Below, one piece after another: positions 388 to 12,769 of a stretch of 12,769 nt of DNA. The stretch lies in NCBI GenBank assembly GCA_002404095.1, contig DHJA01000084.1, forward strand, positions 1 through 12,769, given 5' to 3'. The notes beneath the pieces were generated by a model, which was given only the letters and a program-made list of their open reading frames with translations, was not told the origin of the DNA and did no database searches. How positions within the stretch are numbered: position 1 is the first letter of the stretch; each line of letters opens with the position of its first letter. The position numbers were made by a program, and so were the translations under genes. The stretch is from Planctomycetaceae bacterium UBA4732 (GTDB taxonomy: Bacteria; Planctomycetota; Planctomycetia; Gemmatales; Gemmataceae).

Positions 388-2724
388 TCATGCTATATCA
401 AGCGCCCGGAAGAGCCAAACCTTGAGGAAATCGAGCAGTATGGTGTAGGCGCCCACCGCCGCCAGGAGTTCCAGGATCAGGACCACGGGGACGGCGGCCA
501 TCAGAAATCCTTCAGAAGCAAGGACGCTCACGGCGATGACGTCTGCGACGGAGAAGACCAACAGCCATCGGCCCGGCACGGATCGCCAGAAGCGTCCGCG
601 CTCGCGCACCAGGTAGACGTTCGCCTGTCCGGTGAAGACCAAAAGGAGAAAAATCAGGGTCTGTAAGCGCGGCAGGTCGAGGCCGAGAGCGTCCCGTCCG
701 ACGAAAAAGACGGCGAAGGAAAGAACCAGCCAGCCGCAGGCAAGCGCCAGCGCGGCGACCACGAGGGCGCGGACGGGCCAGCGGTCGGGCTTGCGGGAGA
801 ACGACGCCCGGTCGGAAGCCAGCGACATCGTCACGAAGTCGTTGGCGAATAGCAGGAGCAAGACCAGGCGGGGCGTGGTCACGAAGACGCCGGTGGCGAT
901 CAGACCGGCCGTCAGGAAAAGGGCGATTTGGAAGGTCTTGACGATCTTGTTCAGGGTGTAGGTTAATAGACGCTGGTAGATGCGGCGGCCGGTCTCGACC
1001 GCCTGCGGCGCGTCGGCCAGGCCCGGCCGTGTCAGGACCAGACTGGCGGCGGCCTTGGCCACGTCGGTCGCGTTGGCCACCGCGATGCCGACCTCGGCCT
1101 GTTTTAGCGCCGGGGCGTCATTGACGCCATCGCCCGTCATGCCGACCACATGGCCGGCCCGTTGCAGCGCATCGATCAGGCGAAACTTGTCCTGCGGCAG
1201 GACGCCAGCGAAGACGCCGTACTCCAGCACGTCGGCCCCCATGCCCTCGCGCAAGGCGTCGGCGGGGCATACGCGGCCGTCGATTCCCACCGCTGCGGCG
1301 GCCGCCCGGGCGGTATCCTCGCCATCGCCCGTAACCATCACCGTGCGGACGCCGAGATCCTTTAGGCGTCGCACCATCGCCGCGGACTCTGGACGGGGCG
1401 GGTCGTGCAACGCCGCCAGGCCCGCCCGGCGCAAACGCCCCTCCGGCCCCGCGGCGACGGCCAGGATGCGGAAGCCCTTGGCTGCCAGTTCGCGCACGTC
1501 CCCATTCCAATCCGCCCCCTCAGCAACCAGTCCGGCGACGACCGCCGGCGCCCCTTTGATCACGTGGAGCGTCTCATCGCCGTCGCGCAGCCGGACTTCC
1601 GAGCGCTTAGTCGCGGGGTCGAAGGGGAGGAATTGAAGGAGCGGGGGCCGGTCGGCCAGTAAGCCTTGATCCCGAGCTGGGCCGAGGAGGGCCAAGTCGA
1701 TGGGATCTTGGGTGGACTCGTCGCAGGCGAGGGCGGCCAGGCGCAGCACGTCCCGTTCGCTGAACGGAGGATAGGCCCGCAGGACCGCCAGAGTGAGCCG
1801 ATTCTCCGTTATGGTCCCCGTCTTATCGCTGCACAGCACGTCCATGGCGGACGCCTCCTCGACGGCCGCCAGGCGCGTCGCGAGAACCCCGCGCTTGGCC
1901 AGTTCCAGCGCGCCAAGGGCGGTGGCCAGGGTATAGGTTGCCGGCAGCGCGACCGGGACGGAGGCGACCAGGAGAATCAGGGCGTACGGCAGCACTTCCG
2001 CCCAGGGAAGATTCGAGAACCAGGCATAGGCCAGGAGGACGACCAGCAGAACGACGTCAAAGGCCACCAGGTACTTGACGATGGTAAAGATTACGGCCTC
2101 CTGGCGGCTGGGGGCGTGGGCCGTCCGGACTAACTCGGCCGTCTTGCCGAAGGAAGTACGGCCGCCCGTGGCCGTGACGCGGCCTGTCGCCTCGCCGCGC
2201 CGAACCACGGCTCCCGCGCAGGCCGGATTTCCCGGTCCCGTCTCCACCGGGGCGGACTCGCCCGTCAGCGCGGACTGATCGAGGAGGACGCCGCCGTCCA
2301 GGACGAGCAGGTCGGCCGGTACAAAATCGCCGACGCGCACGTGAACCACGTCGTCTGGCACGAGATCCCGGGCCGGAACGAGTTGCCAGCAGCCGTCGCG
2401 GCGAACCCGCGCCTGGACTTCGAGGCGCTGGCGCAGCAGGGCGAGGGCGCCGCGCGCCCGGCTCTCCTGCACAAAGCTGACCGTGGCGTTCAGGAAGAGA
2501 AGGCCGACGATGATGACGGCCTCGACGATCTTTCCCGAAGCCAGTTCCAGCGCCAGGGTCAATTCGAGCATCCACGGTACGGGGCCCCAGAACTTTCGCA
2601 GAGCGAGCAGGACCGCGTTCGCCCGCTCCTCCGGCGTCTCATTCGGCCCCCATTTCCGGAGCCGTTCGCCGGCCTCCTGGTTGGTCAGACCCTCGGGGGG
2701 GCCTGCTTGGACCGCATTGCTCAT
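388..2724 (-). CDS. Plasma-membrane-type H+-exporting P-type ATPase (P3A-like)
   Basis: This is a P-type cation pump of 778 residues that most resembles the proton-exporting P3A group; it should use ATP to expel H+ across the inner membrane. Visible in order: an N-terminal cation-ATPase region (LTNQEAGERLRKWGPNE, about 13-29), TM1-2 (about 50-85), the actuator loop TGES (154-157), TM3-4 with PVALP (257-261), the phosphorylation site CSDKTGT (Asp300), KGAP in the nucleotide-binding domain (390-393), TGDGEDTA (about 465-472), the hinge GDGVNDAP (531-538), and a C-terminal membrane block. An Asp in the segment ANDFVTMSLASDR sits where plant and fungal H+-ATPases have their M6 proton-binding Asp. 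No C-terminal autoinhibitory domain is seen. An upstream in-frame ATG (2826) exists, but the ATG at 2724 has GGAGG five bases before it and matches where the domain begins. It follows the CBS gene on the same strand and precedes the uspA remnant. K+ or other cation transport cannot be excluded from sequence alone. Confidence 0.92.
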   Translation of the reverse strand: MSNAVQAGPPEGLTNQEAGERLRKWGPNETPEERANAVLLALRKFWGPVPWMLELTLALELASGKIVEAVIIVGLLFLNATVSFVQESRARGALALLRQRLEVQARVRRDGCWQLVPARDLVPDDVVHVRVGDFVPADLLVLDGGVLLDQSALTGESAPVETGPGNPACAGAVVRRGEATGRVTATGGRTSFGKTAELVRTAHAPSRQEAVIFTIVKYLVAFDVVLLVVLLAYAWFSNLPWAEVLPYALILLVASVPVALPATYTLATALGALELAKRGVLATRLAAVEEASAMDVLCSDKTGTITENRLTLAVLRAYPPFSERDVLRLAALACDESTQDPIDLALLGPARDQGLLADRPPLLQFLPFDPATKRSEVRLRDGDETLHVIKGAPAVVAGLVAEGADWNGDVRELAAKGFRILAVAAGPEGRLRRAGLAALHDPPRPESAAMVRRLKDLGVRTVMVTGDGEDTARAAAAAVGIDGRVCPADALREGMGADVLEYGVFAGVLPQDKFRLIDALQRAGHVVGMTGDGVNDAPALKQAEVGIAVANATDVAKAAASLVLTRPGLADAPQAVETGRRIYQRLLTYTLNKIVKTFQIALFLTAGLIATGVFVTTPRLVLLLLFANDFVTMSLASDRASFSRKPDRWPVRALVVAALALACGWLVLSFAVFFVGRDALGLDLPRLQTLIFLLLVFTGQANVYLVRERGRFWRSVPGRWLLVFSVADVIAVSVLASEGFLMAAVPVVLILELLAAVGAYTILLDFLKVWLFRALDIA

Positions 2725-2729
2725 CTCGA

Positions 2730-2734
2730 CCTCC
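2730..2734 (-). promoter_or_regulatory. Ribosome binding site deciding the P-ATPase start
   Basis: On the minus strand this is GGAGG, five bases before the ATG at 2724. It favours that start over the longer reading that begins at 2826, whose extra 34 residues are not like the family. Confidence 0.75.
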
Positions 2735-2974
2735 GCCGCTCGCTTCGCCGAGGCGCCTCGCGTCGGGCGCTCGGTGCGGGGCGCTGACAATGCTTCGTCC
2801 AGCAAGCACATGAAATGCTCGGCCACTTCTTTTCAGCCGGCGGCTGCGACGGCCGGCCGAAGGAAGTCTACTGGGCGAGGCCGGCCGCGGATCAGGTTTC
2901 TTCTGCCGGCTCTGTCCGCTAGCCTTGCCTCCGTGCTCTTCAACCTGGGGGAAGTGTGGACTTCAGCCCGGATG

Positions 2975-3022: not shown

Positions 3023-3526
3023 TCATTGCTCCCCGAACTTCGTGCGGGCGTCGTCCTGTGCAACCGCGGCAAGGATGTCACCGCCGGTCACCATCCCGAC
3101 CGGCCGCTGTTGGCGGTCCAGGATGACGACGCGATGGATGTGGGCGTCGATCATGCAGCGGGCCAAATGGCCGAGCCGGGCCTCCGGGTCCGCCGTCACC
3201 AGATCGGTCGTCATGTACTGGCGGACCTCGTCCTCCGGGACCTGCTCCAGCTCCAGCATCTGCCAGTCGGAGCAGACGCAGGCGGCCGCCTCCGCGACGG
3301 GCGTGGCCGTCCCCTCGCCGCGGTCCATCCAACGGATCAGGTCGGTTCGAGACAGCACGCCGACGCAGCGGCCCTGTTCGTCGGTCACGGGGGCGCCGCT
3401 GACCCGTGCCGTGGCGAGCAGGTGGGCCGCCGCACGCAGCGACATGTGACGCGGGATGACCAGCACGTCGCGGCTCATCACGTCCGCGGCGTTCAGGTCG
3501 AGGGGGGATTTTGTCGCCGTCATCAT
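3023..3526 (-). CDS. Tandem CBS-domain protein
   Basis: A soluble 167-residue protein made almost entirely of two CBS motifs, a Bateman pair that in this family binds adenine nucleotides or related ligands and acts as an energy or ionic-strength sensor. The first CBS motif covers about 14-66 (AADVMSRDVLVIPRHMSLRAA, then SGAPVTDEQGRCVGVLSRTDLI); the second covers about 103-155 (VRQYMTTDLVTADPEARLG, then HRVVILDRQQRPVGMVTGGDIL). A linker of about 35 residues with several Cys and Glu joins them. No catalytic domain or membrane segment is attached. Two ATGs are adjacent (3526 and 3523); GGAGG lies six bases before the first, so 3526 is chosen over the upstream candidate at 3559. It is the first gene of the minus-strand block leading to the H+-ATPase and UspA, so a regulatory or stress-sensing role in that group is plausible but not shown. 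Confidence 0.9.
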   Translation of the reverse strand: MMTATKSPLDLNAADVMSRDVLVIPRHMSLRAAAHLLATARVSGAPVTDEQGRCVGVLSRTDLIRWMDRGEGTATPVAEAAACVCSDWQMLELEQVPEDEVRQYMTTDLVTADPEARLGHLARCMIDAHIHRVVILDRQQRPVGMVTGGDILAAVAQDDARTKFGEQ

Positions 3527-4060
3527 AAGACACCTCCGGGAGAGGGAAATCGGCTCCATCTGAGCCTGGGAGGGCGGTCTTCCTCATAAAGCAAGCGCCG
3601 TGCCGCCTGCGGGCGTCCAGTGATCGACTCGAAAAATGGGCTTGTTTTGCCGAGAGATTCCAAGGAAGTGGGGGCGATGCCCCCTGCTCAGGCCGCCGCT
3701 TCGTTCATGGCGGGAGTGGGCGTTTCCGCACGGGAGCAGGCCGAAGCCGCACAGGTCCACGGCGGAGCGGCGCCGGACTGCTGGAGAACCCGCATGCTGT
3801 TGAGTTCAGAGATTGCGAGCGACTGGATTCGCCCCGTAACCGGCCGCCGCCACTAAAGATAAAGGGCTGTCGGACCCTTAAGGGATATCAGAAGATGAGC
3901 TGGGAACAACCGTTCGAGAAGCGCTCCGGCATGGAGGTTGCTTGCAAGGCGCGCGGGACTTGCAAACGAACGGGAGAGAGACTCAGGGGGCGACTCTGGA
4001 CGCCGTACTGGAACGGAGACCGGCCGCGTCGGCACGTTCGGACCGAACAGGAGAATACCC
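3527..4060. other. Divergent intergenic region between CBS gene and ygaP
   Basis: These 534 bases must carry the promoters of both divergent blocks, but no convincing -35/-10 pair was recognised. The region includes the CBS ribosome binding site (CCTCC at 3533-3537, minus strand) and the ygaP ribosome binding site (4049-4053). It also holds a 10-bp palindrome CCCTTAAGGG at 3875-3884, with AAGGG at 3862-3866 able to pair with its first half. Short open frames (3620-3856 plus, 3895-4206 plus) have no recognisable domain and unconvincing composition. I see no RNA gene or riboswitch fold here. Confidence 0.45.
4049..4053 (+). promoter_or_regulatory. Ribosome binding site deciding the ygaP start
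   Basis: AGGAG seven bases before the ATG at 4061. It supports the 186-residue form that begins MNTTTITPQEL, as in other YgaP proteins, over the longer frame from 3938. Confidence 0.7.
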
Positions 4061-4621: not shown

Positions 4622-4667
4622 GCGACCGGCGGATTCCGAGGGGTTTTTACAGAGGGTGAGGCGCGTC

Positions 4668-6368
4668 ATGAAACTGGTGATCGTGGGCGGCGTGGCGGGA
4701 GGCGCCTCGGCGGCGGCCCGCGCCCGTCGTCTTTCGGAAGAGGCTGAGATCATCCTGCTCGAGCGGGGGCCGGACGTCTCGTTCGCCAACTGCGGCCTGC
4801 CCTACTACCTCGGCGGAGAGATCTCCGAACGCGAGCGCCTCCTGGTGGTGACGCCCGAGCGGATGAAGGAGCGTTATCGGCTGGAGGTGCGGACGCGGAC
4901 CAACGTGGAAGCCATCGACAGGCAAGCAAAGCGGGTTCGCGTCCGCGACCTGGCGTCCGGCCGCGAGTACGAGGAGTTTTACGACAAGCTCATCCTGGCG
5001 CCCGGCGCCACGCCGATCCGGCCGCCGCTACCGGGCATCTACCTGCCCGGCGTCTTCACCTTGCGCAATATGCAAGACATGGACCGGATCAAGGAAGTCC
5101 TCGACAGGGGCGTCCGGCAGGCCGTTGTCGTCGGCGCGGGCTTCATCGGTCTGGAGCTGGTGGAGAACCTGGTCCGGCGGGGCGTGGGGACCACCGTCGT
5201 TGAACTGCAGGACCAGGTGCTGCCGCCGTTCGACCCGGAGATGACCACGCCGGTCGCCGACCACCTGGCGGCGAAGGGCGTCGTCCTACTGCTGGGCCAG
5301 TCGGCCGAGGCGTTCGAGGCTTCCGAGGACGGCCTGACCGTGCGGTTGAAATCCGGCCATCGCTTGCCCGCCCAGCTGGTGGTGCTGGGGGTGGGCGTCC
5401 GGCCCGAGAACAAGCTGGCGGTGGACGCCGGGCTAGAGGTCGGCTCCCGCGGCGGCATCCGCGTCAACGAGCACATGCAGACCAGCGACGCGGACGTCTA
5501 TGCGGTCGGCGACGCCGTGGAAGTGAAAGACTTCGTGACCGGGGAGGCGACGCAAGTCCCCCTGGCGGGGCCGGCCAACCGGCAGGGCCGCATCGCCGCC
5601 GACCACGTGTTTGGGCGCGACAGCCGCTATCGGGGCACGCAGGGCACCGCCGTCGTGCGCGTCTTCGACCTGACGGCGGCGCTGACCGGAGCCTCGGAAA
5701 AGACCCTCCGCCGCCTCGGCAGGCCGTACCGCAAAGTGTACATCCACCCGACGCACCACGCCGGCTACTATCCCGGCGCGCAGCCGATGACCCTCAAGCT
5801 GCTCATCGACCCCGGAAGTGGGAGGGTGCTCGGGGCGCAGGCCGTGGGCGGGGCGGGAGTGGACAAGCGCATCGACGTGCTGGCCGTGGCCATCCAGGCC
5901 GGGATGACGGTCTTCGACCTAGAGGAGGCGGAGTTGGCCTATGCGCCGCAGTACGGCGCTGCCAAAGACCCGATCAACATGGCGAGTTTCGTGGCCGGCG
6001 GCTTGCTCAGGGGCGACCATCCGCAAGTATCCGTCGAGGCGCTTGCCGACGCCAATTGTCCCGTCGAGGGGGTAACGCGCCCCTTCCTGCTCGACGTCCG
6101 CACAGCCGAGGAATTCGCCGCCGGACACATTCCCGAAGCAGTGAACGTCCCCCTGGACGAGCTGCGTTCCCGCCTCGGCGAACTGCCGCACGACCGCACA
6201 ATCGCCGTGTACTGCCAGGTCGGGCAACGCGGCTACCTGGCCCTCCGCATTCTCCAGCAGTCGGGTTGGCAGGCGGCGAACCTCGGCGGCGGGTTCAAGA
6301 CCTACCGACTGTACGCCGAAAGAGACGCTGGCGTATTCTCCGCCGGCAACTGCGGCCGCGTGCGGTAA
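4668..6368 (+). CDS. cdr: CoA-disulfide/persulfide reductase with C-terminal rhodanese (CoADR-RHD)
   Basis: A cytoplasmic 566-residue FAD enzyme of the single-cysteine disulfide reductase group. It begins with the FAD-binding motif VIVGGVAGGASAAARARR (4-21), then the redox cysteine in SFANCGLPYY (Cys42, matching Cys43 of S. aureus CoA-disulfide reductase). The NAD(P)H-binding motif GAGFIG is at 156-161, and the second FAD motif DVYAVGDAVEV at about 280. The dimerisation domain contains the family-typical YAPQYGAAKDPIN (from Tyr425). A rhodanese domain follows (about 475-560): LLDVRTAEEFAAGHIPEAVN, with active loop CQVGQRG and Cys516. Family members with this fusion reduce CoA disulfide, CoA persulfide or polysulfide with NAD(P)H; the rhodanese is thought to present the persulfide. 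GTG at 4656 could lengthen the protein by four residues, but the ATG at 4668 has TGAGG six bases ahead and starts directly at the FAD strand. With ygaP upstream it forms a reactive-sulfur pair. Confidence 0.93.
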   Translation: MKLVIVGGVAGGASAAARARRLSEEAEIILLERGPDVSFANCGLPYYLGGEISERERLLVVTPERMKERYRLEVRTRTNVEAIDRQAKRVRVRDLASGREYEEFYDKLILAPGATPIRPPLPGIYLPGVFTLRNMQDMDRIKEVLDRGVRQAVVVGAGFIGLELVENLVRRGVGTTVVELQDQVLPPFDPEMTTPVADHLAAKGVVLLLGQSAEAFEASEDGLTVRLKSGHRLPAQLVVLGVGVRPENKLAVDAGLEVGSRGGIRVNEHMQTSDADVYAVGDAVEVKDFVTGEATQVPLAGPANRQGRIAADHVFGRDSRYRGTQGTAVVRVFDLTAALTGASEKTLRRLGRPYRKVYIHPTHHAGYYPGAQPMTLKLLIDPGSGRVLGAQAVGGAGVDKRIDVLAVAIQAGMTVFDLEEAELAYAPQYGAAKDPINMASFVAGGLLRGDHPQVSVEALADANCPVEGVTRPFLLDVRTAEEFAAGHIPEAVNVPLDELRSRLGELPHDRTIAVYCQVGQRGYLALRILQQSGWQAANLGGGFKTYRLYAERDAGVFSAGNCGRVR

Positions 6369-6655
6369 CGAACCGGGCGCGTGCGAATTCGCACAGTGGT
6401 GGCGTACGGCAACCGCGCGGCCTCGGCCCGTGTAGGCATTCGCCCGGCAAAAATCAGACGGATTTTCCAGGGCGCAGCGCGCCTTCGGAGCCGCGGCTGA
6501 TTCCTCGGCGTCGGTTTGGCCGGTGCGATGTTCTGCCTATCGGTTCTCTCCCTAAGGCCGCCCGGCATTGGAATTGCTGAGGAGCTTGACGCAGACCTCT
6601 GCTGCTCGTAACTCAGGGGGACGCACGGCCCACAATTACCTCGGGGATTGAATCT
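6369..6655. other. Intergenic region before the Rieske/ACIII block
   Basis: These 287 bases contain no supported gene. They hold a perfect 14-bp palindrome GTGCGAATTCGCAC (6381-6394) just after the CoA-disulfide reductase stop and a short dyad AAAATC-5nt-GATTTT (6450-6466). A weak promoter-like pair TTGACG-17nt-TAACTC (6586-6614) sits about 40 bases before the Rieske ATG; its -35 is good and its -10 poor. This is the likeliest place for an ACIII operon promoter. The ATG at 6656 is preceded by GGGGA eight bases away. Confidence 0.4.
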
Positions 6656-7006
6656 ATGCCGGACCAAAGTCCGAATCGGAGAAGCTTCGTAAGTTGGCTG
6701 ACGACCGCGCTCTTTACGCTGATCGGCGCATTGCTGGCGTCGCCAGCCGTTGCCTATGTCACGTCGGCCTTGTGGAAAAAGCGGGCGGCGGACAAGGGCG
6801 AATCCGACTTCTCGGACGCCGGACCGATCGCCGACTTGGCCGCCGGCGTGTGGCGGCTGGTGACGGTCGAAGTGGTGCGGAAAGACGGCTGGGAAACGAC
6901 TCGCTCCAGCCGCTCGATCTGGGTTCGCCGTCCGGGGGAGGGGAGCCAGGATGTCATCGTTCTTTCCCCCATTTGTCCTCACCTCGGATGCTCAACTAAT
7001 CTGTAG
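6656..7006 (+). pseudogene. Rieske 2Fe-2S protein, interrupted by an in-frame TAG
   Basis: This reading frame gives 116 residues of a Rieske protein: a twin-arginine type N-terminus (NRRSFV at 7-12, then a hydrophobic segment to about 38), a soluble domain (WRLVTVEVVRKDGWE), and the first cluster-binding motif CPHLGC (107-112). Four residues later a TAG codon (7004-7006) stops it. The second motif, which supplies the other Cys and His ligands, lies just past the stop in the same frame (CPCHKG), so the 116-residue product could not hold the 2Fe-2S cluster. CAG (Gln) to TAG is a single-base change, so this is probably a nonsense mutation or a sequencing error. Intact proteins of this type transfer electrons from quinol in bc complexes or sit beside ACIII genes. 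No cytochrome b gene is adjacent. TAG is a genuine stop in actB, which argues against a recoded genetic code. Confidence 0.75.
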
Positions 7007-7129
7007 GCGGACGAGGGGCGGTTCCAGTGCCCCTGCCACAAGGGGACCTTCAACGGCGTGCGGGAGGTTCTTGGGGGGTTAGCCAGGTATCGCCTGCAAT
7101 CCGCGGCACACCATCGGCGAGGGCGCGAC
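7007..7129 (+). pseudogene. Detached 3' part of the Rieske gene, running in frame into actA
   Basis: Directly after the TAG the frame continues ADEGRFQCPCHKGTFNGVRE, which is the second Rieske cluster motif (C-P-C-H) in its normal place. After TFN a functional Rieske usually has 30-50 more residues with a GPPPR-type proline loop. Here the sequence becomes Arg-rich (LGGLARYRLQSAAHHRRGRD) with no such loop in any forward frame, then meets the actA ATG in the same frame. This suggests a deletion joined a broken Rieske gene to the actA leader. The GTG at 7058 is in frame with actA but is better read as part of this remnant. Confidence 0.6.
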
Positions 7130-7783
7130 ATGGTAAGACGGCTCCTGACCCTGGTTCTGCTGGTCGGCCTGGTCCTCAGCGGCGAGGATCTCGTCGGACG
7201 ACTGCGGAGCTATCCGCCGCCGGGCGACCAGCAGGGATACGAGCCTCAGCAGCCCATCGCTTTCTCCCATCGTCTCCACGCAGGAGATTTACAAATCTCC
7301 TGTCAATACTGTCACTATGGGGCGGAAAATAGTCGCCATGCGGGCATCCCGGCCGCCGGCATTTGCATGAACTGCCATCGCTTCGTGACGGCCTCGCAAA
7401 AGGCCATGCTCGGCGAAATCCTGGCGGCCCGCAAAGACAACCGGACGCCCGAGCCGGTCGTGTCGCCCGAGCTGCAAAAGCTCTACGACTCCTTGGCGCT
7501 GAACGGCAAGCTGGAGCGGGATCCGGACATGACGCCCCAACCCATAAAGTGGGTGAAGGTCCACAATCTCCCCGATTACGCGTGCTTCGATCACCGGGCC
7601 CACGCGAACGCGGGCGTGGCCTGCCAGCGCTGCCACGGACCCGTGGAGAGCATGGAGCACTTGCGCCAGGCGTCCGACCTTTCCATGGGCTGGTGCGTTA
7701 ACTGCCATCGAGAATGTCAGCGAACCGGCGTGGACGGCAAGGCGGTCCAGCCGTCGCTGGACTGCGCGACCTGTCATCACTGA
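7130..7783 (+). CDS. actA: ACIII subunit ActA, pentahaem cytochrome c
   Basis: A 217-residue membrane-anchored, periplasm-facing cytochrome with five haem c sites: CQYCH (58-62), CMNCH (79-83), CQRCH (165-169), CVNCH (189-193) and CATCH (212-216). The N-terminus MVRRLLTLVLLVGLVL is a signal anchor, and PIAFSHRLH before the first haem matches the ActA/cytochrome c7-like pattern that supplies distal His ligands. Five haems and this length match ActA of known Alternative Complex III. The role is to pass electrons from the ActB Fe-S chain to a soluble or fused cytochrome c or directly to the oxidase. The ATG at 7130 is chosen over the GTG at 7058 because the signal anchor starts there; a modest GAGG lies seven bases upstream. 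The stop is 14 nt before actB. Confidence 0.93.
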   Translation: MVRRLLTLVLLVGLVLSGEDLVGRLRSYPPPGDQQGYEPQQPIAFSHRLHAGDLQISCQYCHYGAENSRHAGIPAAGICMNCHRFVTASQKAMLGEILAARKDNRTPEPVVSPELQKLYDSLALNGKLERDPDMTPQPIKWVKVHNLPDYACFDHRAHANAGVACQRCHGPVESMEHLRQASDLSMGWCVNCHRECQRTGVDGKAVQPSLDCATCHH

Positions 7784-7785
7784 CT

Positions 7786-7791
7786 AGGAGG
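7786..7791 (+). promoter_or_regulatory. Ribosome binding site deciding the actB start
   Basis: AGGAGG, six bases before the ATG at 7798. It fixes the actB start there rather than at an in-frame ATG at 7714 that would overlap actA by 70 bases. Confidence 0.8.
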
Positions 7792-7797
7792 GAGAGG

Positions 7798-10700
7798 ATG
7801 CGTCTTCCAGAGCAGTACCGTCAAGGGCTTGGGCCCCACCGCAACGACGGCGCCGGCCGCCGCGCCCTGCCGGTTCTTACCGGCGCCGACAGCGCTCCGT
7901 TCAGCCGGCGGGACTTCCTGACGCTGGCCGGGTTCGCGCTCGCCGGGGCCGCCGTGGCGGGTTGCCAGCGGGCCCCGGTCCGCTACGCCGAAACGTACCT
8001 CGATCCGCCGGCCGGGCTGATTCCGGGCCGGTCTTATGATTATGCATCGACGTGCGGCGGCTGCAGCGCCGGGTGCGGCCTACTGGTCCGGAATCGCGAC
8101 GGCCGTCCCATCAAGCTCGAAGGCAATCCGGATCATCCGCTGTCGCGCGGCGGGCTTTGCGCCGCCGGGCAGGCGTCGCTCCTGGGACTCTACGACCAGC
8201 AACGCCTGGCCAAACCGCTGGCGGGCGGCCAGCCCGGTGAATGGCAAGACGTGGATCCGGAAGTGGTGCGCCGACTGGAGGCCATTCGGCAGACGAAGGG
8301 GGTCGTGCGCTTCCTGACGGGCCCGGGCCTCAGTCCCGCCGTCCGCGCCTCGATCCGCCGGTTCCTGGACGGTTTCGCCGACGCCCGCCACGTGGTGCAT
8401 GATCCGCGTTCGTGCGCGGCCATTTTGGAGGCGCACGCGCGCACCCACGGGGCCCGTTTGCTGCCGCATTACCATCTGGACAAGGCCGAGGTGATCGTCG
8501 GCTTTGACGCGGACTTTCTCGGCGCCTGGATTTCGCCGGTCGAATTCACGGCCGCCTACCAGGCCGGGCGTCGCCCGGATGAGCCGGGAGGACGATTCTC
8601 TTATCACGTCCAGTTCGAGTCTCTCCTGACGCTCACCGGCGCGAAGGCGGATCAACGGCTGTGCGTCGCTCCGGGAGAGTTGGGCGCGGTGATGGGTCAC
8701 CTGGCCGCACGCCTTGCCGAACTCGCCAAAAACCCCGACCTGGCGCCTCCGATGGGTTCGCTGCCGGAGCCGCCAGTTTCGGGGCGCTTCCTCGACAAGC
8801 TGGCCGCTTCTCTCTGGCAGCATCGGCAACGCAGCGTGGTTCTCTGCGGCAGTCAGGACGCGGACCTCCAGGTGCGCGCGAACGTTCTGAATCACCTCCT
8901 GGACAACTACGGCGCCACCGTGGACCTCGCCCAGCCGTCCTACCAGCGTGACGGCGACGACCGCGAGGTGGAAACACTGCTTCAGGAGCTTCACGACCCG
9001 GAGAGCAAGATCCAGGCCCTCTTCGTCTACCAGAGCAATCCCGTCCATGATCTGCCCGGCGGAGAAACCATCGCGGAGGATCTGAAACGAGTGCCGCTGC
9101 TCGTCAGCCTGGCGCCCCGTCTGGACGAGACGGCGGAACTCGCCCACTTCGTGTGCCCGGACCACCACTACCTGGAAAGCTGGAGCGACGCTGAGCCGGT
9201 GAGCGGAACGGCGAGTTTGGTTCAGCCCGCGATCAGCCCGCTCGGCGACACGCGCTCGGTGTTGGAGAGCCTGGCGGCCTGGACGGGCAAGCCGCGCCCG
9301 GCGTACGACCTTTTGCGCGAACACTGGGAGAAAGAAGTCTTCCCGCGAAGCACGCGGAAAGTCGGCTTCGCGGAATTCTGGGACCGCACCCTGCTCGACG
9401 GCTTCGCGCTTGTCGCGCCGGCGCCTGGCAGGGCGCCAGCCTTCACACCGCCTCCTGCTGTCGCCGCAGCAAGTCCGCGCGACGAGGCGACGTACAGCGT
9501 CGTCCTGTACTCCAAGGTCGGGCTGCCGGATTCCAGCCATGCCTACAACCCCTGGCTTCACGAGTTGCCCGATCCCATCAGCAAAGTCACCTGGGACAAT
9601 TACGCCACCGTGTCGCCGGCGACGGCGGAGAAACTGGGCGTGGCGGACGGCGACCTGCTCCGGCTGGAAACGGGCGGCGACGCGGGAGCGTCCGGCGTCC
9701 TGGAGTTGCCGGTGTGCGTGCAGGCCGGACAGCACGACCGTGTGGTGGGGGCGGCGCTGGGCTACGGGAGCGTGCTCAGCAAGCGCTTCGCCAACATCGG
9801 GCCGTCGTGGCTTCAGGCGGGACCCACCGTGGGGCCGAACGGCCTGGTCGGGAAGAACGCGGCGCCGTTGCTTCAGTGGGTGGAAAGCGGCCTGCATTAC
9901 ACCCGCGATGGCGTGCGCCTGTCCAAGGCCCCCGGGCAGCAGCCCCTGGCTTCGACGCAAGGCAGCAGCTTGCTGACCTTGCCCTCGCGCTTTGCTTCGC
10001 TGGAGAACGAACGGCAACCTATCATCCGCCAGAGAACTCTTCAGGCCCTGCAGCAGGAATCGGCCGGCAAGCCGGACGCCGCGCCTGCCGCCGAAAAAGA
10101 AGATCTCTGGCCGGCGGATCACCCGGAAAAAGGTCTCCACTGGGGCATGGTGATCGACCTCAGCGCATGCACGGGTTGCTCGGCCTGCGTTATCGCTTGC
10201 CAGGCCGAGAACAACATTTCCGTGGTCGGCAAGGACGAGGTCCGGCGGCACCGTGAAATGCACTGGCTGCGCATCGACCGCTACTACATGGAACACGACG
10301 GCGGCGTGGAAGTGGCGCACCAACCCATGTTGTGTCAGCACTGTGGCAACGCCCCGTGTGAAGCGGTCTGCCCGGTCCTGGCGACGGTGCACAGTGAAGA
10401 TGGGCTCAACCAGCAGGTGTACAACCGCTGCGTGGGCACGCGCTACTGCGCCAATAACTGTCCGTACAAGGTGCGGCGGTTCAACTGGTTCGACTACGCC
10501 CACGACGACCTGCTGCAGAACCTGGTCCTCAACCCCGACGTCACCGTCCGGTCGCGCGGGGTCATGGAGAAATGCACCTTCTGCGTGCAACGCATCGAGG
10601 AGGGCAAGGCCGCGGCCGGGGGGAACGGAAAGATTCCGGGCGACGGAGTGGTCCAGACGGCGTGCCAGCAGTCGTGTCCCGCGCAGGCCATCGTGTTCGG

Positions 10701-10863
10701 CAACCTGAACGATCCAACGAGCCGGGTGGCCCGGCTGGCGGCCGGCTCGCGCAGCTACCAGGTCCTGGCGGAGCTGAACGTGCGGCCTTCGGTGAGCTAC
10801 CTCACTCTGGTCAGGAATCGTCCGGCTGGGCGGCCGGAAGGGGAGAGCGAAACGCATGGCTAG
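7798..10863 (+). CDS. actB: ACIII subunit ActB, MopB-like domain fused to Fe-S domain
   Basis: A 1021-residue periplasmic electron-transfer subunit of ACIII. It has a twin-arginine signal SRRDFLTLAGFALAG (36-50) followed by AVAGC (52-56), which could be a lipobox with Cys56 lipidated. The first domain (about 80-770) has the molybdopterin-oxidoreductase fold sequence but is expected to lack Mo cofactor, as in known ActB. It keeps a full C-x2-C-x3-C-x27-C set (Cys86, 89, 93, 121). The second domain (about 780-1000) is a four-cluster ferredoxin-type module: CTGCSACVIAC (from 791), CQHCGNAPCEAVCPV, the ACIII-typical CVGTRYCANNCPYKVRRFNWF, and CTFC with CQQSCPAQAI. These carry electrons from quinol oxidised at ActC towards ActA. 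Its TAG stop overlaps the actC start by eight bases (ATGGCTAG), which suggests translational coupling. The identification as ActB is firm; which clusters are filled cannot be seen. Confidence 0.95.
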   Translation: MRLPEQYRQGLGPHRNDGAGRRALPVLTGADSAPFSRRDFLTLAGFALAGAAVAGCQRAPVRYAETYLDPPAGLIPGRSYDYASTCGGCSAGCGLLVRNRDGRPIKLEGNPDHPLSRGGLCAAGQASLLGLYDQQRLAKPLAGGQPGEWQDVDPEVVRRLEAIRQTKGVVRFLTGPGLSPAVRASIRRFLDGFADARHVVHDPRSCAAILEAHARTHGARLLPHYHLDKAEVIVGFDADFLGAWISPVEFTAAYQAGRRPDEPGGRFSYHVQFESLLTLTGAKADQRLCVAPGELGAVMGHLAARLAELAKNPDLAPPMGSLPEPPVSGRFLDKLAASLWQHRQRSVVLCGSQDADLQVRANVLNHLLDNYGATVDLAQPSYQRDGDDREVETLLQELHDPESKIQALFVYQSNPVHDLPGGETIAEDLKRVPLLVSLAPRLDETAELAHFVCPDHHYLESWSDAEPVSGTASLVQPAISPLGDTRSVLESLAAWTGKPRPAYDLLREHWEKEVFPRSTRKVGFAEFWDRTLLDGFALVAPAPGRAPAFTPPPAVAAASPRDEATYSVVLYSKVGLPDSSHAYNPWLHELPDPISKVTWDNYATVSPATAEKLGVADGDLLRLETGGDAGASGVLELPVCVQAGQHDRVVGAALGYGSVLSKRFANIGPSWLQAGPTVGPNGLVGKNAAPLLQWVESGLHYTRDGVRLSKAPGQQPLASTQGSSLLTLPSRFASLENERQPIIRQRTLQALQQESAGKPDAAPAAEKEDLWPADHPEKGLHWGMVIDLSACTGCSACVIACQAENNISVVGKDEVRRHREMHWLRIDRYYMEHDGGVEVAHQPMLCQHCGNAPCEAVCPVLATVHSEDGLNQQVYNRCVGTRYCANNCPYKVRRFNWFDYAHDDLLQNLVLNPDVTVRSRGVMEKCTFCVQRIEEGKAAAGGNGKIPGDGVVQTACQQSCPAQAIVFGNLNDPTSRVARLAAGSRSYQVLAELNVRPSVSYLTLVRNRPAGRPEGESETHG

Positions 10864-12769
10864 CATCTCCGTCCCCTCGCCGCCCAGTCGGCCTCCCCTC
10901 ATCGTCGGGGACAAGACCGCGGGGCAGGTGACCTCGGACATTTGCGCTCCCCTGGAGCGGCGGGCCGGCGGCTGGTGGTGGCTGGCCTTCCTGGCGGCCG
11001 TCAGCGTCCTGCTGCTCGGCGTCGCCGCCGTCTCCTACCAGCTCGACGTGGGCATCGGCACGTGGGGCCTTAACCGCTCGGTCGGCTGGGCCTTTGACAT
11101 CACGAACTTCGTCTTCTGGATCGGGATCGGTCATGCCGGAACCCTGATCTCGGCCATCCTCTTTCTGTTCCGCCAGAAATGGCGGACCTCGGTCAATCGT
11201 TCCGCGGAGGCGATGACTCTTATTGCGGTGATGTGCGCCGGCATCTTTCCCATCATCCACATGGGCCGGGCGTGGCTGTTTTACTGGATCATCCCCTACC
11301 CCAACGGGCGCGGGCTGTGGATCAATTTCCGCTCGCCGCTGGTCTGGGATTTCGTCGCCATCAGCACCTACTTCCTGATCTCCCTGGTCTTCTGGTACGT
11401 GGGTCTGATCCCGGATCTCGCCACGCTCCGCGACCGCGTCCGGCCGGGATGGTACCGTCGCTTCGTCGGCCTGCTCAGTCTGGGCTGGAACGGGTCGCAC
11501 CGGACCTGGCGTCGCTACGAGGTCGTGTACCTGCTGCTGGCCGGGTTGGCGACGCCGCTGGTCGTCTCAGTCCACTCCATTGTGAGTGCGGACTTCGCCG
11601 CCACCCTGTTGCCCGGCTGGCATTCCACCATCTTTCCGCCCTACTTCGTGACCGGAGCCATCTTCTCCGGCATGGCCATGGTCCTGACCCTGATGCTCGT
11701 GGTCCGCAAGGTCCTGCACCTGGAGGACTACCTGACCCCGCGCCATATCGACGCCATGGCCAAGCTGGTGCTGGCCACGAGTTGCCTGGTGGGATTGTCC
11801 TACGCCATTGAGTTTTTCACGGCGTTTTACGAGGGCAATCCCTACGAGACCTTCACCTTCGCGAATCGCGCCCTCGGCCCGCTGGGGTGGGCCTTTGCCG
11901 TCATGGTGGCCTGCAACGTCCTGTTCCCCCAGCTGTTCTGGTTCCAGGCCGTCCGGCGCCGATTGCTGCTGGTGTTTGCGATCTCCATCCTGGTGAACGT
12001 GGGCATGTGGATGGAGCGATTCGTCATCATCGTGTCGGCGTTGGAGCGGGACTTCCTCCCGTCCAGCTGGACCGGCTACGCGCCGACGTTGATCGAGGTG
12101 GCCACCCTCCTCGGCAGTTTCGGCCTGTTCTTCTCGTGTTTCCTGGCCTTCTGCCGTCTCATGCCGGTGATCGCGATGGCCGAGGTCAAGGGCGTTTTGG
12201 CGCCGAAGCACGATGTTGAGGGGTCAGGGGTCAGGGGTCAGGGGTCAGCCAACCCCATCCCTGTCGGGCCTGACCCCTTGCCCCTTGCCCCGGACCCCTT
12301 GGCTCCCGTGGCCCCAACGGTCATCGTGGCCAGTTTCGCGAAGGAAGAAGACTTGCTGGAGGCGGTACGAGCCGTGCAGAAGCGGGCCTGGCACATCGTC
12401 GATGTATATACCCCCTATCCCGTACACGGCCTGGAGCAGGCGCTCGACTGGCGGCGCTCTTGGCTGCCGGCGGCGTGCTTGCTCGGCGGCGCGGCCGGGG
12501 CCGGGTTGGCCCTGTGGTTCCAGTTCTGGGCGTCGGCGCAGGACTGGCCCATCAATGTGGGAGGCCGGCCATGGAATTCGCTTCCCGCGTTCGTCCCCGT
12601 GGCGTTTGAGAGCATGGTCCTGCTCGCCGGCTACGGCCTGGTGGCAGCCTGGCTCCTTCGCTGCGGGCTGTATCCGGGGAAGAAGGCCCGCACGCCGCTG
12701 ACCGGCGTGACCGACGATCAGTTCGTGTTGGCCGTTCGTAACCCTGTTGTGGCACGGTCTGGAGACCGT
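10856..12769 (+). CDS. actC: ACIII subunit ActC fused in frame to ActD (DUF3341), partial at 3' end
   Basis: One open frame of 638 codons runs to the window end without a stop. Residues 1 to about 454 are ActC, an NrfD/PsrC-family integral membrane quinol-binding subunit with many hydrophobic helices and family-typical stretches such as FDITNFVFWIGIGHAGTLIS, FPIIHMGRAWLFYW and NVGMWMERF. Residues about 455-487 are a Gly/Pro/Asp-rich linker encoded by a heptamer repeat. From about 489 the protein is ActD: VIVASFAKEEDLLEAV, VDVYTPYPVHGLEQAL, two membrane helices, and the DUF3341 signature around NVGGRPWNSLPAFVPVAFE. Normally ActC and ActD are separate proteins. The only in-frame start near the junction is GTG 12308, which has no purine-rich site upstream, so a true fusion is more likely than a separate actD. 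The ATG overlaps the end of actB, with AGGGGAG about ten bases before it. The 3' end of ActD lies outside the window. Confidence 0.9.
   Translation, partial: MASISVPSPPSRPPLIVGDKTAGQVTSDICAPLERRAGGWWWLAFLAAVSVLLLGVAAVSYQLDVGIGTWGLNRSVGWAFDITNFVFWIGIGHAGTLISAILFLFRQKWRTSVNRSAEAMTLIAVMCAGIFPIIHMGRAWLFYWIIPYPNGRGLWINFRSPLVWDFVAISTYFLISLVFWYVGLIPDLATLRDRVRPGWYRRFVGLLSLGWNGSHRTWRRYEVVYLLLAGLATPLVVSVHSIVSADFAATLLPGWHSTIFPPYFVTGAIFSGMAMVLTLMLVVRKVLHLEDYLTPRHIDAMAKLVLATSCLVGLSYAIEFFTAFYEGNPYETFTFANRALGPLGWAFAVMVACNVLFPQLFWFQAVRRRLLLVFAISILVNVGMWMERFVIIVSALERDFLPSSWTGYAPTLIEVATLLGSFGLFFSCFLAFCRLMPVIAMAEVKGVLAPKHDVEGSGVRGQGSANPIPVGPDPLPLAPDPLAPVAPTVIVASFAKEEDLLEAVRAVQKRAWHIVDVYTPYPVHGLEQALDWRRSWLPAACLLGGAAGAGLALWFQFWASAQDWPINVGGRPWNSLPAFVPVAFESMVLLAGYGLVAAWLLRCGLYPGKKARTPLTGVTDDQFVLAVRNPVVARSGDR
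12220..12297. repeat. GGGGTCA heptamer tandem repeat with imperfect inverted copy inside actC-actD
   Basis: Four perfect copies of GGGGTCA lie head to tail at 12220-12247. After a 24-nt spacer come complementary heptamers TGACCCC, TTGCCCC, TTGCCCC and a diverged GGACCCC (12271-12297, one base shared at the join). The two arms can form an imperfect stem. The block is about 78 nt, a multiple of three, and is read through as EGSGVRGQGSANPIPVGPDPLPLAPDP between ActC and ActD. Tandem GGGGTCA blocks of this kind usually lie between genes in some bacterial genomes; being inside a protein is unusual. Confidence 0.85.

Follow-up and report, generated by a model that had tools for sequence, protein, structure and literature searches.

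A Rieske centre needs both cluster motifs, which a functional Rieske gene carries, as CxHxxC and CxxH, within a single open frame, and pseudogenes left at deletion joints are known in bacterial genomes. In relatives of the gene described here cytochrome b usually follows the Rieske gene directly, and it is adjacent in 49 of the 51 distinct loci discussed below. For alternative complex III (ACIII), the Rhodothermus structure has ActA anchored by an N-terminal transmembrane helix (PMC5928083). The locus analysed here lies in the first 12,769 bases (the window) of a 39,320-base contig of Planctomycetaceae bacterium UBA4732, where a broken Rieske gene stands before an operon of the ACIII type (Table 1). 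We consider it very probable that this remnant is a recently inactivated bc-type Rieske pseudogene at a deletion joint before the ACIII operon, with ActA made from its own ATG, and the finding is most likely an ordinary pseudogene in a mildly interesting setting.

Table 1. Features of the Rieske remnant and of the act operon, in window positions.
Feature	Position	Strand	Evidence
5' leader of the Rieske remnant	6621..6655	+	GGGGA before ATG; Shine-Dalgarno reading by eye
Probable Rieske pseudogene, N-terminal part, 116 codons	6656..7003	+	RRSF signal/anchor region and CPHLGC
In-frame TAG between both cluster motifs	7004..7006	+	Translation; alignment of relatives
Rieske frame continued, CPCHKGTFN up to LGG	7007..7075	+	KGTFNGVREVLGG identical in P0009
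Non-Rieske joint, 54 bases	7076..7129	+	GAGG shortly 5' of the actA ATG; Shine-Dalgarno by eye
actA, pentaheme cytochrome c of the ACIII operon	7130..7783	+	Five CXXCH
actB, molybdopterin-oxidoreductase-like and 4Fe-4S domains	7714..10863	+	Longest frame; ends in TAG
Fused actC-actD, NrfD and ActD domains	10856..12769	+	Runs on to contig position 12988

Translation of 6656-7783 gave CPHLGC, STNL and the TAG, and then ADEGRFQCPCHKGTFNGVREVLGG, after which the frame stays open through LARYRLQSAAHHRRGRD to the actA ATG at 7130 with the TAG as its sole stop. An earlier note on this DNA had reported a Rieske frame split by a TAG at 7004-7006 and running in frame to actA, and the translation bears out these coordinates and motifs; CxHxxC and CxxH do not share one open frame, the TAG lying between them. 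By eye, the RRSF region is of the twin-arginine type and no Rieske-like reading of the proline loop and C-terminus could be found in the three frames of 7058-7132. That the end of the protein is missing, as the earlier note had also claimed, was equally evident from the near-invariant positions, counted on 21 of the 25 rows of relatives (P0001, P0005, P0009 and P0013 dropped): 25 of 36 are kept and 11 are lost, every loss falling at residue 136 or later, and the 19 positions before the TAG are all intact. The 116 N-terminal codons still look well preserved by sequence; third-position GC in frame is 0.74 in the first part of the remnant vs 0.78-0.87 in three neighbouring genes. Because all lost near-invariant positions lie at residue 136 or beyond, either the loss of the gene would be recent or its N-terminal part would have been under selection until lately.

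A Rieske profile searched against the whole genome matched the remnant at 31.4 bits (Pfam cut-off 20.3) with one TAG inside the match. When the pieces were searched singly Pfam gave nothing for the first at 0.1 and only 14.6 bits for the second, so that the halves are recognised mainly together or via close relatives. Residues 1-136 of the relative P0002 aligned with the remnant at 265 bits, far above chance.

The open frame that links the remnant to actA could be taken as a sign that the TAG is read through or recoded to give a Rieske-ActA fusion protein, as the earlier note had proposed, since no other stop interrupts it up to the end of actA. At the local composition chance alone would keep 41 codons open in 38% (by formula) to 57% (by sampling of the window) of cases, and 18 codons in 66-76%, and the joint would be in frame by chance one time in three; the in-frame link is therefore unremarkable, an open frame being often expected by chance. 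Such a fusion would lack the C-terminal part of the Rieske fold and would carry the N-terminal transmembrane helix of ActA, as known from the structure cited above (PMC5928083), in the middle of the chain. Assuming a simple topology, a helix placed behind an exported Rieske domain would moreover turn the haem domain towards the wrong side. The ActB frame of the same operon also ends in TAG, and in a partial test for an amber-suppressor tRNA with a CTA anticodon none of six pattern matches was called a tRNA by ARAGORN. Nine ActA relatives were viewed. The three with the highest scores, P0026, P0027 and P0028, start with MVRRLLTLVLLVGLVLSG as at 7130; the rest begin there or close by, P0031 having a longer N-terminus. 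Since relatives start there, ActA would be translated from its own ATG at 7130, and we regard the fusion as extremely improbable.

When residues 1-116 of the remnant were used as the query, a protein search returned 25 relatives. Three of these, P0002, P0003 and P0004, are full length (184-190 residues), 85-90% identical to the remnant and intact, with both cluster motifs, a GPPPR loop and a normal C-terminus. The position of the TAG is a leucine in all three, which are the closest full-length relatives; the proposal that a single change from CAG to TAG created the stop is disfavoured by this, as glutamine is not what they carry. Close homology to intact genes thus goes together in the remnant with disabling lesions, the mark of a pseudogene. 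Two further relatives are broken themselves. P0001 has 116 residues, is 91% identical to the remnant and ends with the very residue that precedes the TAG there; its sequence differs from that of the remnant and comes from another source, and we infer that a stop codon, not the edge of a contig, terminates it. P0009 reads through the position of the TAG, carries the same KGTFNGVREVLGG and then stops, at the point where the window sequence with one base fewer in a run of G would give a stop; its N-terminus is out of frame and matches an ORF in another frame of the window at 6694. Several lesions are thus spread across related sequences.

These two relatives bear on whether the locus is real. In a draft assembly of 299 contigs a Rieske piece and the act operon could have been misjoined, or the stop could be a base error, and the Rieske-actA neighbourhood was seen in no other locus examined; but P0001, a distinct sequence of other origin, breaks off at the residue before the stop, P0009 has the same stretch up to the joint, and within the contig coherent genes lie on both sides of the joint. 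We hold an assembly artefact to be improbable. The equal length of P0001 and the intact near-invariant positions before the stop could suggest instead that the N-terminal piece of 116 residues continues to be produced and has been retained, for instance anchored in the membrane or acting as a translated leader for the act operon. Such a fragment could form no Rieske centre because only one of the two cluster motifs is present, and in P0009 the N-terminal part is in another frame; we hold a kept fragment to be slightly less probable still than an artefact. The preferred reading remains that of a pseudogene.

The in-frame translation of the leader, TSGIES, equals the end of the N-terminal extension in full-length P0003, and the 5' flank is therefore probably the same locus as that of P0003 or a close copy. 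In a 27-row tree P0003 was placed, with modest support, between the remnant on one side and P0001/P0009 on the other, and a 12-row tree left the branching order open, a clade of the three broken sequences not being rejected (p 0.225). As DNA, nothing closer than 48% to P0002 was found in 95 genomes of the family, 102 of the order and 397 of the class, the genome's own remnant aside. An alignment query against 392 genomes of the phylum found 22 genomes at 1e-35, this one included, none near enough for P0002; these four genome sets overlap. At 1e-20 a P0002-like Rieske was present in 5 of the 95 family genomes, again including that of the window.

The 51 Rieske loci are the best-scoring places delivered by the searches and not every match, and cytochrome b adjoins the Rieske gene in 27 of 29 in L010-L038 (exceptions L022 and L026), in all four of L120-L123 (L122 being the same place as L010) and in all 21 of L170-L190 (L179 and L181 being the places of L017 and L018). 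An actA match was found at none of the 51, mostly with about 1.5 kb examined on each side. Conversely, no Rieske match was found at 80 actA loci (the best 80 of 574), for which at least 1 kb of upstream DNA was available in 79 and at least 3 kb in 69, and a Rieske gene is not a member of the act operon at any of them. One actA locus, L133, has a 42-bit cytochrome b match; weak matches of this kind at L040, L042, L164, L165 and L166 lie within the ActE region and probably stem from the cytochrome c portion of the query. An actA match at 1e-15 is present in 46 of the 95 family genomes, and proteins near the window's ActA (61-66%) were seen, its own genome aside, only in G084, G017 and G027 among them; the named actA loci most like that of the window are L040 and L042 (68%, Planctomycetota). 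When the remnant and the joint were compared with the DNA before actA in G084, G017 and G027 only short matches at chance level appeared.

Nine Rieske matches were found in the genome, the remnant included. The only cytochrome b match lies on contig C68, beside an intact Rieske-domain frame of 251 residues. No cognate cytochrome b for the remnant was found in the genome, an absence which is not final because the draft is 90% complete and in 299 contigs. Three Rieske matches stand in a row on another contig (G000:C29:23502-25958) in frames of 354-413 amino acids, which probably encode proteins of the ring-hydroxylating-oxygenase type.

A second NrfD match marks a more canonical-looking ACIII operon on contig C277 (L199 4575-13782, G000:C277). 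It encodes ActA with five haem motifs by eye, ActB, ActC and an ActE-like protein with one haem motif; ActD was not identified in it, a 442-residue protein without Pfam match takes the place of ActF, and an SCO1-like gene follows. As predicted from the draft genome, the cell would keep a single bc-type complex alongside two ACIII-like operons.

The act operon next to the remnant spans 7130-12769 in the window and continues to 14760 of the contig (C75, L164). It is a variant in which ActC and ActD are fused (710 amino acids) and the ActE-like protein, of 607 amino acids, has four CXXCH as compared with the monohaem form; the true start of actB is probably later than 7714. After the ActE-like gene no ActF was found among the listed long frames, the next of which are on the opposite strand; the NrfD profile may miss ActF-type proteins, as the C277 protein in the ActF position likewise had no Pfam match. 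Upstream in the window we observed a proton-efflux-type P-ATPase above the NCBIfam cut-off (388-2826, minus strand), a small protein that is CBS-domain-like by eye (3023-3559, minus strand) and, below NCBIfam cut-offs, a rhodanese-domain protein resembling CoA-disulfide reductase (4656-6368, plus strand).

Taken together, homology, lesions, the cytochrome b neighbourhood of the relatives and the genome searches agree well with what had been called a fossil of a Rieske/bc gene. We propose that a deletion took the C-terminus of the Rieske gene and the cytochrome b gene, leaving a remnant that would end about 54 bases before the start of the ACIII operon, with the TAG as a further lesion. Because part of the fold is missing the remnant would yield no working Rieske protein, while its leader may still carry the act operon transcript. 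Judged from sequence, the remnant would be the leftover of a further bc-type complex, and it is no proof that the sole complex of this type gave way to ACIII: the suggestion that the locus records how one quinol:cytochrome c system took over from another is in keeping with the missing cognate cytochrome b but is weak, because the genome keeps another bc-type complex, the pair on C68, and a second ACIII-like operon.

One might speculate further that through the deletion the ACIII operon acquired the promoter and leader of the lost bc operon and is now expressed from this old control region, in an in-place swap of quinol:cytochrome c systems caught early. This we think unlikely, if less so than the alternatives discussed above. 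A scan of 6300-7200 for promoters and terminators gave no sites of either kind, with a consensus that may not suit the promoters of this organism. If it were true that the old promoter drives the act operon, the locus would offer a rare view of an exchange of respiratory complexes without loss of regulation. Taken as a single locus, it documents gene loss in a minor way: a bc-type complex lost a subunit gene together with its partner, beside an enzyme of like function but unrelated structure. A narrow literature search, covering parts of the sources, brought up no earlier description of a remnant Rieske gene next to act genes, a result of little weight given so limited a search.

Among known systems, the nearest relatives that can be placed as DNA are the bc-type Rieske genes of G097 and G080, whose proteins are 48% and 46% identical to P0002. 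Like the remnant they have the N-terminus with CPHLGC, and CPCH, and they lie directly upstream of a gene for a cytochrome b-cytochrome c fusion; unlike them, the remnant has a stop codon and is without proline loop, C-terminus and adjoining cytochrome b. With alternative complex III the window shares ActA with its five haem motifs, ActB, a fused ActC-ActD and an ActE-like cytochrome, whereas a Rieske gene is part of the act operon at none of the 80 actA loci and the remnant comes from a different system. The remnant also resembles pseudogenes at deletion joints, from which we found no departure: it has, as they do, a stop codon, a lost C-terminus, a missing partner and relatives with different lesions.
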